DNA of 23,217 nt from a virus, in the IMG/VR virus record IMGVR_UViG_3300032213_000182, positions 1-23,217 of that record. The stretch is one strand, 5' to 3'. Made by a program: the position numbers and the translations under genes. Position 1 is the stretch's first letter, and each line of letters starts with the position of its first letter. This document shows positions 3,044 through 20,440 of this stretch, one piece after another. Below the pieces are notes generated by a model. That model was not told the DNA's origin, made no database searches, and worked only from the letters and a program-made list of their open reading frames with translations.

Positions 3044-3372
3044 GCGAAGAACGAGACCCACACAAGGCAGTTGATTACATCTTGAAGAACGCCGCGCTGT
3101 TTGCAAAAGCGAAGGCAGAGCGTACTTACATCGAACATTTTCGCAAGAGCCTGAAGGGCATCCTGATGAAGCGAAGCATGGAGAGCGCTATCGGTGCGCA
3201 GGAGCGCGAGGCATACGCTCACCCAGAGATGGTGCAGTTGCTTGAAGGCTTGAAAGCCGCAGTCGAGATTGAAGAGAAGTTGAAGTGGGACATCACAGCC
3301 GCTGAGTTGCGCGTGGAAATCTGGCGCACTGAGCAGGCAAATAACAGGGCGGAAGGCAAGGCAACCATATGA
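3040..3372 (+). CDS. Conserved phage hypothetical protein, helical
   Basis: This 110-aa protein is predicted to be mainly helical. It contains KAVDYILKNAALFAKAKAER near the N-terminus, QEREAYAHPE in the middle (about 54-63), and AAELRVEIWRTEQ near the C-terminus. This layout matches a conserved family of small phage proteins encoded near replication and recombination genes, with no assigned function that I know of. The start has a good ribosome site (GGAGAAG, 3031-3037) and an ATGA overlap. The stop overlaps the capsid-like small gene. Confidence 0.75.
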   Translation: MSEERDPHKAVDYILKNAALFAKAKAERTYIEHFRKSLKGILMKRSMESAIGAQEREAYAHPEMVQLLEGLKAAVEIEEKLKWDITAAELRVEIWRTEQANNRAEGKATI

Positions 3373-3551
3373 GCGAATTAACGCAGGAGAGCCTAGAGGC
3401 TATGCTCATAAAAATTCGCAAACACTTGGATGAAACTGGCGACAAAATCAGTTTGATACCAACTCAGTTGATTGTCCGACCGTCAGATTTAGAGGCGCTC
3501 GGACTTACTGTTGATGAGATTACAAAAATGATTAAGGAGCAAAGTGCATGA
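3369..3551 (+). CDS. 60-aa protein resembling a fragment of the major capsid protein
   Basis: The ATGA overlap and operon position support a real gene. Its residues 4-38 align without gaps to residues 167-201 of the major capsid protein at 19526-20440. I count 21 identical residues of 35, including SLE-ML-I-IR, G-KI-L-P and QLIV-P. In the capsid this segment lies in the HK97-like core before the P-loop-like QLIVAPGN. The copy lacks the rest of the capsid domain, so it cannot assemble as a shell protein by itself. It could be a recruited duplication that binds or modulates capsid subunits, or a relic. It is expressed in the early operon, away from the head genes. Confidence 0.75.
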   Translation: MSELTQESLEAMLIKIRKHLDETGDKISLIPTQLIVRPSDLEALGLTVDEITKMIKEQSA

Positions 3552-3625
3552 ACATCTTCCAGAGGGGTGTCATCTTTGGGCTGGTTTTGTTTGCTGTTAT
3601 TTTTTATTGCGTGGAGTTTTTATGA
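3548..3625 (+). CDS. Tiny membrane peptide (25 aa)
   Basis: The ATG at 3548 overlaps the previous stop as ATGA and has AAGGAG at 3534-3539, eight nt upstream. The peptide reads MNIFQRGVIFG followed by LVLFAVIFYCVEFL, which is one probable membrane-spanning helix. The stop overlaps the next start (ATGA at 3622). Overlaps at both ends and a good ribosome site argue for translation despite its size. Function unknown. Confidence 0.5.
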   Translation: MNIFQRGVIFGLVLFAVIFYCVEFL

Positions 3626-3852
3626 AGACCGAAGAGGATGAAGAGTTCGAGCGCATCGAGCGCGAACAAAAGGGGCGCGAAGCGGAGGGCTGGCGCAAGC
3701 GTCAAATCCTCACCTTGCGAACCAGTTTTGAGTCCTTCGACGAGTGGGAACACAGCCACCGCCCAGAGCAATATTTTGTCGAGCGCCGCGCATACCTTGC
3801 AGGCTTCGAGGCTGGTCGCCGTTACGAGCGCCTGAAGGAATCAAATGACTGA
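3622..3852 (+). CDS. Small charged hypothetical protein
   Basis: This 76-aa protein has a very acidic/basic N-terminus (KTEEDEEFERIEREQKGRE) and a C-terminal YLAGFEAGRRYERL motif (about 57-70) that recurs in small phage proteins. The start at 3622 uses GTGGAG (3611-3616) and an ATGA overlap. An in-frame ATG at 3544 was rejected because the added residues overlap the tiny membrane gene. It ends 8 nt inside the zinc-ribbon gene. Function unknown. Confidence 0.65.
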   Translation: MKTEEDEEFERIEREQKGREAEGWRKRQILTLRTSFESFDEWEHSHRPEQYFVERRAYLAGFEAGRRYERLKESND

Positions 3853-5167: not shown

Positions 5168-5484
5168 GTACCGACCACATTGTCACCAGCACAAAGACTG
5201 GCAAATTCAAGTGCGAGTTCTGCGGAGCGGAGGAAGAGCCGCCCATCATGCCTGCACCCATCGACGTCATCATCGACGCAATGGATTTTTTTATGGACAA
5301 GCACAAAGATTGCAAACCACCACAAGCGGAGGCTGTTATGAGCGAATACATCAAGGGCTTTGACGCTGGCTATGCCTACGTCTTGAACGAGGTTGAGAAC
5401 TACATCAAGAGCGCCAACAGTCACGACGCGATGGTGCTGGTGCAGTTGCTCGCGCATCTCAAGATGGAAGGCAAACCTCAATGA
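5164..5484 (+). CDS. Hypothetical protein with zinc-binding N-terminus (possible fusion)
   Basis: This 106-aa protein has FKCEFCG (Cys17, Cys20) and MDKHKDCKPP (His47, Cys50), a likely CCHC zinc site separated by a PIMPAPIDVIIDAMDFF segment. A second part (about 59-106) begins MSEYIKGFDAGYAYVLNEVE and looks like an independent small phage protein. Internal ATG 5338 has GGAGG (5328-5332) five nt upstream, so the second part may also be made separately. ATGA overlaps occur at both ends. Function unknown; the zinc module is the best-supported feature. Confidence 0.7.
   Translation: MSTDHIVTSTKTGKFKCEFCGAEEEPPIMPAPIDVIIDAMDFFMDKHKDCKPPQAEAVMSEYIKGFDAGYAYVLNEVENYIKSANSHDAMVLVQLLAHLKMEGKPQ
5328..5340 (+). 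promoter_or_regulatory. Internal ribosome site and ATG inside 5164-5484
   Basis: GGAGG at 5328-5332 with ATG at 5338-5340 gives a well-spaced start for a 48-aa product in the same frame as the longer gene. It suggests either a fusion that has kept its old start, or an alternative short product. Confidence 0.4.
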
Positions 5485-6506
5485 GATTTGTTGAGTTGTT
5501 CGCAGGCATTGGTGGGTTCCGTCTGGGGTTAGAGCAGGCGGGTCACCAGTGCGTGTGGGCAAACGAAATATTAGAAAAACCAAGGAGGATTTATGCAAGA
5601 AACTTCGGGCATGAGCCAGACGCAAGAGACATTAGAACTGTTCAGCCTAACGACATCCCAGATGCAGAACTCCTCTGCGGCGGATTCCCGTGCGCGACTT
5701 TCAGCGTTGCTGGAAAGCGCTCTGGATTCTCGACAGAAGATACTCGCGGTACTCTCTTTTTTGAAATCTGTCGCGTTCTCAGAGACAAACGAATACCTTA
5801 TGTTTTCCTTGAAAATGTCAAAGGACTCCTCAACCACGATGGGGGAAGAACCTTTGCTGTCATCATCGCAAGTCTTGATGAATTGGGGTACGACGTTCAA
5901 TGGGAAGTTGTTAACAGCCAAAATTTCGGAGTCCCGCAAAACAGGGAGCGCGTATTCATTGTCGGACATCTTAGAGGACAACCCAGACCCCAAGTATTTC
6001 CTCTCGGAGTCTGCCTTTCAGAAGATGTTCACGAAACAACGCAAGGAGCGTCAAGCGAAGCAAGAGGAGGGGAACCCGAATCAAGCCGACCTATTCTGAT
6101 GCCCTTCGTCACAGGCAAGGTGATGCAATTCAAGGATGTGTTCCCAACGCTTGATGGTCATTACTGGAAGGGCATTCAAAACAATCAAGGGCGCGGTGCT
6201 GTGATGCAGGTGCGCCCAGTGCTAACGCCACACCGTGACACTAAGCGCCAGAACGGGCGTCGAGTCAAAGACCACAACGAGCCAGCGTTCACTCTCACGG
6301 CTCAAGACAGGCATGGAGTCATCGTAGGCGAACGCCTGCGCCGCCTGACACCACTGGAGTGCGAGCGCCTGCAAGGGTTACCCGACAACTTCACCAAATA
6401 TTACGACGACGGTTCATTGGTTAGCGACGCCGAGCGATACGAGCGTTGTGGTCGCACCGTCACTATCCCCGTCATCTACGAAATTGCAAAGAGGTTCCCA
6501 ACATGA
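5481..6506 (+). CDS. DNA cytosine-C5 methyltransferase
   Basis: This 341-aa enzyme of the Dcm/M.HhaI type should transfer a methyl group from SAM to cytosine C5, probably protecting phage DNA from restriction. Visible motifs: motif I ELFAGIGGF (5-13), catalytic PC in GGFPCATFSVAG (Cys71), ENV (111-113), motif VIII QNRERVFIVG (153-162), and a C-terminal GRTVTIPVIYEIAKRF motif X (324-339). The target-recognition region is about 165-285. All motifs are in one frame, so no frameshift is needed. The start overlaps the previous stop (ATGA). Residues 38-206 are overprinted by another ORF. No cognate restriction gene is visible. Confidence 0.93.
   Translation: MRFVELFAGIGGFRLGLEQAGHQCVWANEILEKPRRIYARNFGHEPDARDIRTVQPNDIPDAELLCGGFPCATFSVAGKRSGFSTEDTRGTLFFEICRVLRDKRIPYVFLENVKGLLNHDGGRTFAVIIASLDELGYDVQWEVVNSQNFGVPQNRERVFIVGHLRGQPRPQVFPLGVCLSEDVHETTQGASSEARGGEPESSRPILMPFVTGKVMQFKDVFPTLDGHYWKGIQNNQGRGAVMQVRPVLTPHRDTKRQNGRRVKDHNEPAFTLTAQDRHGVIVGERLRRLTPLECERLQGLPDNFTKYYDDGSLVSDAERYERCGRTVTIPVIYEIAKRFPT
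5582..5595 (+). promoter_or_regulatory. Strong Shine-Dalgarno inside the methyltransferase gene
   Basis: AAGGAGGA (5582-5589) with ATG at 5593-5595 is the best-matching ribosome site seen in the window. In the methyltransferase frame it is read as Pro-Arg-Arg-Ile, using tandem AGG AGG codons where most other Arg in that gene is CGN or AGA. It opens the +1 frame. Confidence 0.6.
5593..6099 (+). CDS. Overlapping +1-frame ORF within the cytosine methyltransferase gene
   Basis: This 168-aa frame lies fully inside the methyltransferase gene, starting at an ATG with a strong Shine-Dalgarno. The protein is Ser/Thr-rich with a hydrophilic N-terminus. Its C-terminal third holds GSAYSLSDILEDNPDPKYFL (about 118-137), then a basic KQRKERQAKQ tract and a terminal QADLF. 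I recall phage proteins with a SLSDILE...KYFLS core near Dcm-type genes, but cannot verify that they occur apart from such genes. Conservation of methyltransferase motif VIII could preserve this frame passively. QADLF resembles a bacterial sliding-clamp binding pentapeptide (QLxLF type). Start signal, length and family-like core favour expression; function unknown. Confidence 0.55.
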   Translation: MQETSGMSQTQETLELFSLTTSQMQNSSAADSRARLSALLESALDSRQKILAVLSFLKSVAFSETNEYLMFSLKMSKDSSTTMGEEPLLSSSQVLMNWGTTFNGKLLTAKISESRKTGSAYSLSDILEDNPDPKYFLSESAFQKMFTKQRKERQAKQEEGNPNQADLF

Positions 6507-7171
6507 AATCTTGGACTTTTGAATCAAAAGAAATTGCGGAGACATTTGACTCTCATGTGCGTGAGCAATTGCCGTGGTACGACATGGTCACTGATGCAGT
6601 TGTTTACATCGCAAGCAACTACATGACAAAAGGTTGCGTCATTACTGAGATTGGCGCATCAACAGGCAACATGACAAAGGCGCTGTTGCCAATATTTGTT
6701 GAGCGTGACGGGTGCAATTACCAAGCCATCGAGGTAAGTCCAATGATGTGCGATGTGTTCAACGCAAACATTCAACATCCGCTCGTTAGTTGCTGGGAGT
6801 CTGACATCCTTGAACTGGACATCAAGGGCGAAATTGATACATCTCATGTCACTATTTTGTTTTTGACTTTGATGTTCATTCCTGTCGAGGAGCGTGAGCG
6901 TTTGATGAAAAGGTTGCGCAAGAATTCGCATAAGGGAGGTTGCATCATTGTGGTTGATAAGGTGTTAGACCACGGCGGTTACTTTGCCACCGTCTTGAAG
7001 CGCCTTACCATGCATTTCAAATTAAAACAGGGGGCAAAACCAGAGGATGTGCTGTACAAAGAAATGAGCCTAGCGGGAGTGCAGATACCGATTGACCGAG
7101 CAATCTTAGGAAAGAACGCCAAGCAATTTTTTCGTATGGGTGAGTTTGCAGGGTGGGTAATTGAGACTTAG
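6503..7171 (+). CDS. Class I SAM-dependent methyltransferase
   Basis: This 222-aa protein has a Rossmann-type SAM-binding motif ITEIGASTGNM (about 47-57) followed by an acidic residue in YQAIEVSP (Glu77). The N-terminus SWTFESKEIAETFDSHVREQ looks like CmoA-like methyltransferases found in phages. A KGGCIIVVDKVLDHGGYF segment (about 144-161) probably belongs to the substrate-side core. The substrate is unknown: it could be nucleic acid, tRNA or a small molecule. The start at 6503 was preferred to 6446 because it overlaps the previous stop as ATGA and has GAGG at 6491-6494. It appears to be the last gene of cassette 1. Confidence 0.82.
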   Translation: MKSWTFESKEIAETFDSHVREQLPWYDMVTDAVVYIASNYMTKGCVITEIGASTGNMTKALLPIFVERDGCNYQAIEVSPMMCDVFNANIQHPLVSCWESDILELDIKGEIDTSHVTILFLTLMFIPVEERERLMKRLRKNSHKGGCIIVVDKVLDHGGYFATVLKRLTMHFKLKQGAKPEDVLYKEMSLAGVQIPIDRAILGKNAKQFFRMGEFAGWVIET

Positions 7172-16805: not shown

Positions 16806-16987
16806 AGGTTCTATCCGACTTCATAAGCGCTGTAAAAGCGCGTCAGGCAGAGATTGCAAAGGGGTTGGCGCATGGAAATGCGTCTGACTTCAATGCATAC
16901 CAACGCTTGGTCGGAGAAAACCTCGGACTTGAACAGTCCCTTGAGATTCTTAACCACCTTTTGAAAGAAGATGAAGATGACAGATAG
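16802..16987 (+). CDS. Small hypothetical protein
   Basis: This 61-aa helical protein has VKARQAEIAKGLAHGNASDF (about 11-30) and YQRLVGENLGLEQSLEILNH (about 33-52). It resembles small phage proteins often seen after the portal in this type of head cluster. The stop overlaps the GroES-like gene by about 17 nt. Role unknown. Confidence 0.65.
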   Translation: MKVLSDFISAVKARQAEIAKGLAHGNASDFNAYQRLVGENLGLEQSLEILNHLLKEDEDDR

Positions 16988-17399
16988 CACGGTAGCGGGT
17001 AATGCCGCTGATTTAGAGGAAGCATTTCCTCTTGTAGACCCCGGTGCGATACCCCTTGGTGCGCGTGTACTTGTTCAGTTGCGCAAAGCCAAGAAACGAA
17101 TGACTCAATCTGGGATTATTTTGCCCGAAGAGACTCGCGACACCGAACGGGCGCAAAACCCCGTTGCCAAGGTGATTGCGTTTGGCCCATTAGCGTTCAA
17201 AAAACGCGACACGATGGAGCCTTGGGTCGAGGGTATTTGGTGCGAAGTGGGAGACTTCCTGCGCGTACCCAAATGGACTGGCGACCGCTGGCAAGTTCCG
17301 CACGGTGACGACGAAAACGTCGAATTCATGGTGCTGAATGACCACGAAGTGATTGCCAAAATTACAGGAAATCCACTTGAAGTGAGGGCATTCATATGA
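16971..17399 (+). CDS. GroES-like co-chaperonin
   Basis: This 142-aa protein has a GroES fold signature: GAIPLGARVLVQLRKAKKRM (about 25-44), SGIILPEE with a mobile-loop-like segment (about 47-54), NPVAKVIAFGPLAF, and a C-terminal FMVLNDHEVIAKI. Phage co-chaperonins such as T4 gp31 modify host GroEL to fold the capsid protein. Its position between portal and scaffold fits head assembly. Two in-frame ATGs are possible (16971 and 16977); the first gives one longer reading. The stop overlaps the scaffold start as ATGA. Confidence 0.85.
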   Translation: MKMTDSTVAGNAADLEEAFPLVDPGAIPLGARVLVQLRKAKKRMTQSGIILPEETRDTERAQNPVAKVIAFGPLAFKKRDTMEPWVEGIWCEVGDFLRVPKWTGDRWQVPHGDDENVEFMVLNDHEVIAKITGNPLEVRAFI

Positions 17400-18370
17400 G
17401 TACCGAACAAGAACAAGAAGTTATTGTCATTCAGGAAGAGAAAGACGGCTCGGCGACCATTGAGTTGCCTGATAGCATCCCATCTCCTGAACCACAACAC
17501 GATGATGATTCCGATGAAGCGGATGAACGCGCCCGACAGAAGGAAATGGTCGTCGGTGGAGCGGTAGATGCGGACGCAGAAGCCCTGCGCGAGCAAAAAC
17601 GCCTCAAGCGCCAGCGCCGCAAGGAGTATCACAAGCAGGTTTCCTCTGAAAAGGACGTCAAACTGACCCTTTTGGAGCGACAAAACCAACAATTGCTTGA
17701 GCGGTTGTCTGTTTTGGAGAAAAAGAGCCACGGTTCGGACATCGCACGCCTGAATAAGGCAATCGAAGACCAAAACACGCGCATTTTGTTCGCCAAACAG
17801 AAAATCCAAGAAGCAACAGCGACTGGTAATGGTGAATTGCTCACTTCCGCACAGGAAATGTGGTTTGAAGCCCGCCGCCAGTCAGAGGCTTTGGAGAATT
17901 TGAAGAAACGCTCGGTTGCACCACAGCGCCAGCGCACTATTCAGGCTCCAGACCCACAATTGCAACGCCATGCAAGTAACTGGATGTCAAATAACCCTTG
18001 GTATGACCCAAGTGGTCGTGACCCAGATAGTCGCCGTGCTTTAAACGAGGATGCAATCCTTGCTGAAGAGGGTTATGACCCCAAAACTGCCGAGTATTGG
18101 GAAGAACTTGACAGACGCTTGCAAAGAGTAGTACCTCACAGGTATACTGAAGATGCAGACGAGAGACCACGCTCTAGACCGCGAAATGCAGTGACGAGTT
18201 CAGGCCGCGAATTTGCATCAAATAATGGCAGAGGTAATTCTTTTACTCTCTCTCCTGACCAAGTCAGGGCTATGAAAGATGCAGGTATGTGGGATGACGC
18301 TGAGAAACGAGCCAAGATGATTCGACGCTACGCCTTAGAAGCCAAGCAAACTAACAGTTATAGGGGTTAA
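17396..18370 (+). CDS. Probable scaffolding protein
   Basis: This 324-aa protein has an acidic N-terminal region (Glu/Asp-rich, DDDSDEADE at about 36-44), a long central coiled coil (KQVSSEKDVKLTLLERQNQQ, about 81-100), and a basic Arg-rich C-terminal third. That layout, and its position just upstream of the capsid genes, match P22-type scaffolds, which template the prohead and then leave. There is no obvious protease site. Length is close to the about 300 aa of the P22 scaffold. Confidence 0.75.
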   Translation: MSTEQEQEVIVIQEEKDGSATIELPDSIPSPEPQHDDDSDEADERARQKEMVVGGAVDADAEALREQKRLKRQRRKEYHKQVSSEKDVKLTLLERQNQQLLERLSVLEKKSHGSDIARLNKAIEDQNTRILFAKQKIQEATATGNGELLTSAQEMWFEARRQSEALENLKKRSVAPQRQRTIQAPDPQLQRHASNWMSNNPWYDPSGRDPDSRRALNEDAILAEEGYDPKTAEYWEELDRRLQRVVPHRYTEDADERPRSRPRNAVTSSGREFASNNGRGNSFTLSPDQVRAMKDAGMWDDAEKRAKMIRRYALEAKQTNSYRG

Positions 18371-19525: not shown

Positions 19526-20440
19526 ATGGCCGCACCAATGCGCAGTACGGACTTTAGAAGTATTGTTGAACCTATCCTCAACGAATGCTTCGATGGAGTC
19601 TATGACCAACGTACCGATGAATGGTCACGGGTTTTCCGTGAGCAAGAAGGTATTCCCCGTAACTACCACGAAGAACCAGTCCTTTATGGATTTGGAGCCG
19701 CGCCTCAACTGCCTGACGGAACTCCTGTTTCGTATCAGCAGGGTGGTGTTCTCTTCTTGCAACGCTATGTGTACAACGTGTATGGCCTCGCCTTCGCATT
19801 GACCAAAGTGTTGGTTGAAGATGGTGACCATATCCGCATCGGTCAGGTTTACGCTCGTCACTTGGCTCAGTCTTTGATTGAGACCAAAGAGACATTGAGC
19901 GCAAACGTGTTGAACCGTGCGTTCAACTCTTCGTACCCCGGCGGTGACGGTGTTGCTTTGAACAGCGCATCACACCCCATCGTGAATGGTACTTTCAGCA
20001 ACTTGCTGTCCACTGCGGCTAACTTGAGCCAGACATCTCTCGAACAGATGCTGATTCAAATCCGTCAGGCTGTGGACAACAACGGCAAGAAGATTCGCCT
20101 TGTGCCTCGTCAATTGATTGTGGCCCCCGGCAACGTCTTCCAAGCCGAAGTGTTGTTGAAGTCAGTTCTCCGCGCTGGTACAGGCAACAACGACGTCAAC
20201 CCCATCAAATCTATTGGTTTGCTGGACGAGGGCGCGGCTGTGTTGTCTCGTTTGACTTCATCTACCGCATGGTGGGTGCAGACTGATGCTCCAGAAGGCA
20301 TGAAGTTGCTGATGCGTCGCAAACTCGAAAAGACTATGGAAGGTGATTTCGAGACCGACTCTATGCGCTACAAGGCTACTGAGCGTTACCAAGTGGGCTT
20401 CACTGACCCACGCGCCGTGTACGGCACACCCGGCGTCTAA
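19526..20440 (+). CDS. Major capsid protein, Mu gpT-like HK97 fold
   Basis: This 304-aa protein has the order seen in gpT-type capsids: a charged N-terminal arm, a YNVYGLAFALTKVLVEDGD segment (about 83-101), then SLEQMLIQIRQ and KIRLVPRQLIVAPG (188-202), and a C-terminal WWVQTDAPEGMKLLMRRKLE (249-268). It forms the icosahedral shell. The 171-206 segment is partly duplicated in the early gene at 3369-3551. It is preceded by GGAG and followed by a strong terminator, consistent with high expression. Confidence 0.85.
   Translation: MAAPMRSTDFRSIVEPILNECFDGVYDQRTDEWSRVFREQEGIPRNYHEEPVLYGFGAAPQLPDGTPVSYQQGGVLFLQRYVYNVYGLAFALTKVLVEDGDHIRIGQVYARHLAQSLIETKETLSANVLNRAFNSSYPGGDGVALNSASHPIVNGTFSNLLSTAANLSQTSLEQMLIQIRQAVDNNGKKIRLVPRQLIVAPGNVFQAEVLLKSVLRAGTGNNDVNPIKSIGLLDEGAAVLSRLTSSTAWWVQTDAPEGMKLLMRRKLEKTMEGDFETDSMRYKATERYQVGFTDPRAVYGTPGV

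Follow-up and report, generated by a model that had tools for sequence, protein, structure and literature searches.

The window, that is, the whole 23,217-nt stretch analysed here (positions 1 to 23,217 of IMG/VR record IMGVR_UViG_3300032213_000182), carries a small gene that encodes 60 amino acids and that is surrounded by genes for replication and recombination: a primase zinc ribbon, a DnaB-like helicase, RusA and a RecA-dependent nuclease. Judging from this neighbourhood, the gene would be expressed early. It is an ATG-to-TGA open reading frame sharing an ATGA overlap with each of its two neighbours (Table 1), and it lies ~16.6 kb from the segment of the major capsid protein (MCP) gene that it resembles; in these respects a preliminary description of the locus, which had placed the gene in the replication operon about 16.5 kb from the capsid gene, with start, stop and ATGA coupling preserved, was accurate. 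The reading frame listed downstream at 3544-3852 is probably two genes joined by ATGA, namely that of the 25-aa hydrophobic peptide and one starting at 3622 (3622-3852). Two further reading frames, adjacent and overlapping (5481-6506 and 6503-7171), read like DNA methyltransferases, the first of them Dcm-like; both assignments are putative.

Table 1. Features of the small early gene, its neighbours and related loci (window coordinates unless a contig is named)
Feature	Position	Strand	Support
Upstream conserved early gene, 110 aa	3040..3372	+	Homology to sibling phages ends at its stop codon; variable slot thereafter
ATGA overlap of upstream gene's stop and small gene's start	3369..3372	+	
Small early gene, derived from an MCP segment, 60 aa, ATG to TGA	3369..3551	+	ORF call, capsid alignment, ~20 intact relatives
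Capsid-derived part of small protein, residues 2-41: helix, D-x-x-G turn, strand	3372..3491	+	MCP alignments, hhalign; helix 6-23 from a low-confidence model
C-terminal part of small protein, residues 37-60, RPxDLExLGLTVDEVTKMIKE	3477..3548	+	Column conservation; past ~residue 41 without capsid match
ATGA overlap of small gene's stop and start of downstream peptide gene	3548..3551	+	
Downstream gene, 25-aa hydrophobic peptide	3548..3625	+	In siblings without the small gene, the 110-aa gene is followed at once by a comparable gene
Putative scaffold C-terminus, residues 281-322 (of protein 17396-18370)	18236..18361	+	Homologous fragment in an early 99-aa gene of G015
MCP, 304 aa, Phage_capsid_4, HK97 fold	19526..20440	+	Pfam, model fold matches
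MCP residues 165-204, homologous to the small protein; helix 169-180 and strand 194-199 as predicted, presumptive A-domain	20018..20137	+	
GGAGAAGAACACATGA sites	L005 1219, 1314, 1891, 2571; L018 10168, 10446; L010 2960; L016 9989; L056 5989; L058 4983		

The identity of the MCP itself rests on Pfam families PF25209 (Phage_capsid_4) and PF10124 (Mu-like gpT) and on a fold search, which matched the predicted structure to shells of the HK97 fold (encapsulins, T5 and HK97); PDB sequence searches with the MCP, both single and profile-based, returned no match. Residues 4-38 of the small protein align without gaps to MCP residues 167-201 with 21 of 35 identities, which reproduces the count first given in the preliminary description. 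The BLOSUM62 local score is 102, as compared with a mean of 26.6 (SD 4.3) and a maximum of 57 among 2000 shuffles; tblastn within the record recovers the MCP segment (E 1.2e-9); and PF10124 gives a weak hit to the small protein whose register agrees with that of its MCP match. The profile search, which the preliminary description had named as a possible refutation, likewise indicates homology: hhalign aligns the small-protein family to 29 MCPs with a probability of 95.8% and E 6.7e-9, leaving the register unchanged. Moreover, a family profile of residues 2-36 finds solely MCPs among the listed proteins of at least 95 aa (from 3314), at E ~1e-11. Residues common to the small family and to both MCP clades are L4, S8, L9, E10, L13, I14, I16, D21, G24 and I27. 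A chance resemblance between helix-turn-strand motifs deserves consideration for a segment this short (~38 residues), but the shuffle test, the hhalign E-value and the exclusiveness of the N-terminal profile leave it hardly conceivable, and homology between the small protein and the MCP is established by sequence comparison. Over the aligned stretch the two genes are only 49% identical in DNA and 20% at third positions, so the copy is ancient.

The small protein thus behaves as a homologue of one segment of HK97-fold MCPs, with significant profile similarity and a consistent register, but not as a whole capsid protein: of the N-arm, E-loop, spine helix, P- and A-domains, its 60 residues represent only MCP residues 163-204. 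Compared with the MCP of its own phage group, it is homologous over ~38 residues in a shared register, but it keeps only the hairpin, is encoded early, is 60 aa long, and has a new C-terminus and an accessory distribution. In the MCP model the corresponding segment forms helix 169-180, a turn, strand 194-199 and then helix 201-212 (mean pLDDT 75-83). Because in the P22 capsid protein the A-domain consists of a sheet with two short helices at its flanks (PMC9965877), the segment would, by analogy, be the A-domain hairpin.

The AF2 model of the small protein is poor (pLDDT 68, pTM 0.31), consisting of helix 6-23 and two short helices, and a fold search with this poor model gave no significant match. 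Along the first helix a stripe formed by residues 11/15/18/22 differs from the MCPs, whereas the other faces are largely shared; the helix residues in common are mostly ones expected to be buried (L9, L13, I14 and I16), and the stripe faces outward. Beyond about residue 41 the C-terminal part has no match to the capsid, nor any elsewhere, in profile comparisons. The sole PDB sequence match of the small family, to a designed repeat protein (at the C-terminal LGLTVDE), is unrelated and is taken as a coincidence; derivation of this C-terminus from that of the scaffold found no support (E above 1).

Relatives were collected from IMG/VR, 17 by one query and 20 by alignment, with three plain MCP hits excluded; the carrier records are metagenomic and some are fragmentary. 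The genome collection added a single contig, which carries one further relative and was placed in the bin of a betaproteobacterial MAG, and in the isolated-phage collection only capsid genes match, with no stand-alone copy of the small gene. The ~20 relatives are all 60-69 aa long and have intact frames with start and stop. In all carriers whose record includes the upstream side the gene starts inside the end of the upstream gene, and in nearly all an ATGA or GTGA is shared between its stop and the following start (in L051 the stop is TAA). A codon model yields an omega of 0.226 for the family and NG86 a median pairwise dN/dS of 0.21; both halves of the gene are constrained (0.22 and 0.21), and the C-terminal part is the better conserved, with 9/21 invariant columns at residues 37-57 versus 5/35 at residues 2-36.

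Because the ~20 relatives are intact, lie in coupled operons in every case and evolve under purifying selection (omega ~0.23), the view that the gene encodes a maintained protein rather than debris, which the preliminary description had advanced and for which it had proposed the dN/dS test, is supported. A neutral hitchhiking cassette or functionless gene debris might be imagined, inasmuch as gain and loss are frequent in the hypervariable slot that the gene occupies; it is nevertheless very improbable, since frame, start and stop are intact throughout the family and purifying selection, overall and in each half, contradicts it.

The distribution of the gene is patchy. None of 21 long records (37-58 kb) with MCPs at least 93% identical to that of the window contains it, the family profile finding the capsid gene alone there; the upstream 110-aa gene is present in 19 of these 21. 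A search of related phages, as originally suggested, found intact copies in some 20 contigs; the long records with near-identical capsids lack the gene. It is likewise absent from all 80 loci whose upstream gene is most similar to that of the window. At those loci similarity to the window generally ends at the upstream stop codon, and assorted other small genes come next, with the same 4-base overlap; the slot behind the 110-aa gene is therefore hypervariable. Among the genes that occupy it in siblings (L211-L290) are ones for small lipoprotein-like proteins (MKKIFIAVCAVSALAGCSS...) and for membrane peptides, as well as one of HNH type; a 4-base overlap is present in nearly all of them.

An occupied and an empty site can be compared directly. 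Between the carrier L371 (record G015) and its siblings L373 and L374, which have the flanks in common (96.5% for L373), the difference amounts to 179 nt, corresponding to the small gene without its overlap; the breakpoints coincide with a 7-bp repeat, TATGACT, at the two ATGA junctions. This comparison of contigs shows a clean gain or loss of a single gene. Hence the small gene is not, as a core capsid-assembly gene would be, present in all phages with that capsid (21/21 absent); it displays instead the variable presence, transfer between lineages and precise insertion of an accessory early cassette.

A 16-mer, GGAGAAGAACACATGA, which comprises a ribosome-binding site and a stop/start overlap, recurs at the junctions of unrelated small early genes, at most four times per contig, and could serve as a seam for cassette exchange. 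Cluster K mycobacteriophages reportedly possess modules of small genes with a short conserved start-associated sequence at their starts; the recurring sequence here is likewise located at the starts of small genes, but the phages and the sequence (GGAGAAGAACACATGA) are different.

Evidence of transfer comes from comparing the window with the carrier G013. Their MCPs are ~40% identical and their portals 33% (0.39 at portal third positions), whereas their small proteins are 66% identical (0.63 at third positions), as would be expected from horizontal transfer of the small gene after the lineages split; the carrier G039 resembles G013 in this comparison. The small proteins of G013 and G039 score 88 and 91 against the window-type MCP versus 57 and 53 against the carrier's own capsid, although their identities to the two MCP clades lie closer together than these scores do. 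The tree of the shared segment with capsid proteins, which the preliminary description had called for, agrees: the small proteins group together and are joined by a long branch to the window-type MCPs, a result that, with ~40 residues, is indicative only. The carriers with a visible MCP are mostly of the window type (the window, G002, G006, G010 and G011).

One role that had been suggested--assembly timing or regulation of the carrier's own capsid--is disfavoured by the gene's distribution. Such a regulator or chaperone would suit the observations that, of all carriers, the window has the small protein closest to its own MCP (21/40) and that all carriers with a visible MCP belong to one broad capsid supergroup. 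Yet the gene is missing from every one of the long records with near-identical capsids, is gained or lost precisely, as a single cassette, between close siblings, and has spread to phages with ~40%-identical capsids of the other MCP clade, which the small proteins there do not follow; the regulator is therefore quite improbable. Interference with co-infecting phages, also suggested there, or a capsid-sensing context like that of Gol or CapRel, are candidate readings that fit the accessory pattern.

A second early fragment points to the assembly machinery. The window protein 17396-18370, which lies between a GroES-like gene and the capsid gene, is rich in charged residues and has no assigned PHROG function, is probably the scaffold. 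In G015 an early 99-aa gene (L057:4054-4353), ~1.6 kb from the small gene, matches residues 281-322 of this protein at 50% through its residues 34-75; it is found in four related contigs (L057, of record G015, and L372, L373 and L374). In a scan of 16,638 small ORFs against 79 virion-region proteins, the MCP-fragment family and this scaffold fragment were the clear dispersed cases once genes truncated by the end of a locus, or split where they stand, had been set aside. This suggests that capsid-assembly surfaces are recurrently captured, although the single scaffold case could be a coincidence. In P22 the C-terminal helix-turn-helix of the scaffold binds the inner procapsid near the five- and sixfold axes, and the tip of the A-domain moves during capsid maturation (PMC9965877). 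The GroES-like co-chaperonin gene (16971-17399; Cpn10, E 2.9e-8) is itself situated between the portal and capsid genes.

It is very probable that the small gene originated from an MCP segment and now has the status of an accessory cassette. By this account, a copy of a segment of a window-type HK97-fold MCP--the helix-turn-strand hairpin of the predicted A-domain--entered the early region and was fused to a new C-terminus, giving a stand-alone protein of ~60 aa that is kept by purifying selection and moves between phages as a one-gene cassette. What this protein does is proposed more tentatively. It may be an accessory capsid mimic, made ahead of the real capsid. Its hairpin and new C-terminus would attach to a third party able to recognise capsomer surfaces, which could be a capsid-sensing defence of the host, kept occupied but not switched on, or else the capsid intermediates of competing phages; it would not regulate its own capsid. 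Such a target is plausible because capsid-sensing defences exist (CapRel, Thoeris) and an early capsid-derived protein could occupy the sensor or poison rival capsomers.

Several observations weigh against such mimicry. The most family-specific part is the new, non-capsid-like C-terminus, and the function may therefore not involve capsid recognition; the outward stripe 11/15/18/22 differs from the MCPs, making surface mimicry weaker than expected; and the predicted model is of low confidence and without a fold match. The new C-terminus may instead bind an unrelated host target, a reading only slightly less likely than a sensor or rival capsomers. Here the capsid hairpin would have been raw material and its ancestry incidental, the invariant C-terminus (RPxDLxxLGLTV...K.IK) binding a host replication, transcription or metabolism factor. 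This similarly tentative possibility accords with the stronger conservation of the C-terminal part, with the many shared residues that look like fold-core positions, and with a setting of host-takeover and replication genes in which the other occupants of the slot are unrelated small genes. Against it, the MCP-shared helix faces have been kept at ~40% identity over a very long divergence, during which a free scaffold could have drifted further, and chance capture would not predict a second assembly fragment, the scaffold C-terminus, early in G015.

Alternatively, the fragment might act on competitors, joining or blocking the capsomers of co-infecting phages as a dominant-negative assembly inhibitor, possibly together with the scaffold fragment. 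Both the accessory status of the cassette and the closeness of its sequence to window-type capsids, even where the carrier has a different capsid, are in keeping with this, as is the finding that the P22 A-domain tip and scaffold C-terminus (PMC9965877) are the kinds of parts seen here as early fragments. It is rather unlikely, however, as most carriers with a visible MCP have window-type capsids themselves and would risk poisoning their own assembly.

Returning to the capsid mimic, a possible, if doubtful, generalization is that pieces of assembly surfaces (the MCP A-domain hairpin and the scaffold C-terminus) have repeatedly been turned into early accessory genes, whose products would decoy capsid-sensing immunity or inhibit the assembly of rival capsids. 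The small early gene of some freshwater phages points to a piece of capsid put to use against the host or rival phages, at a time when capsid proteins are increasingly found to be targets sensed by bacterial immunity. The family is conserved, mobile and early and has a traceable capsid origin; it illustrates the reuse of a structural domain as an early accessory protein, and the natural near-isogenic pair with and without the gene offers a direct way to test whether parts of the capsid are exapted for use against rivals or host sensors.

No precedent for a phage-encoded capsid-derived decoy was found in the open-access literature, which does not cover all journals, but several known systems are comparable. 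In phage T4, the Gol segment of gp23 acts with Lit: a short capsid segment triggers a host exclusion system. A short capsid segment there has a role of its own, as the small protein may have; Gol, however, is internal to the capsid gene, whereas the small gene is a separate early gene. Thoeris ThsB1/B2 senses the staphylococcal major head protein in hexameric form, so that a host defence reads the capsid protein as a capsomer; the passages on this sensing mention no phage-encoded capsid mimic (PMC11312562). The contacts of CapRel include the P-domain and an A-domain loop of the MCP (PMC9712102), and its triggers SECphi27 MCP (Gp57) and Bas11 Gp54 bind overlapping sites of this one sensor (PMC9712102, PMC11578894). 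Gp54, a phage protein of 66 aa whose function is unknown, lacks sequence or structural similarity to the MCP (PMC11578894), whereas the protein described here is MCP-derived.
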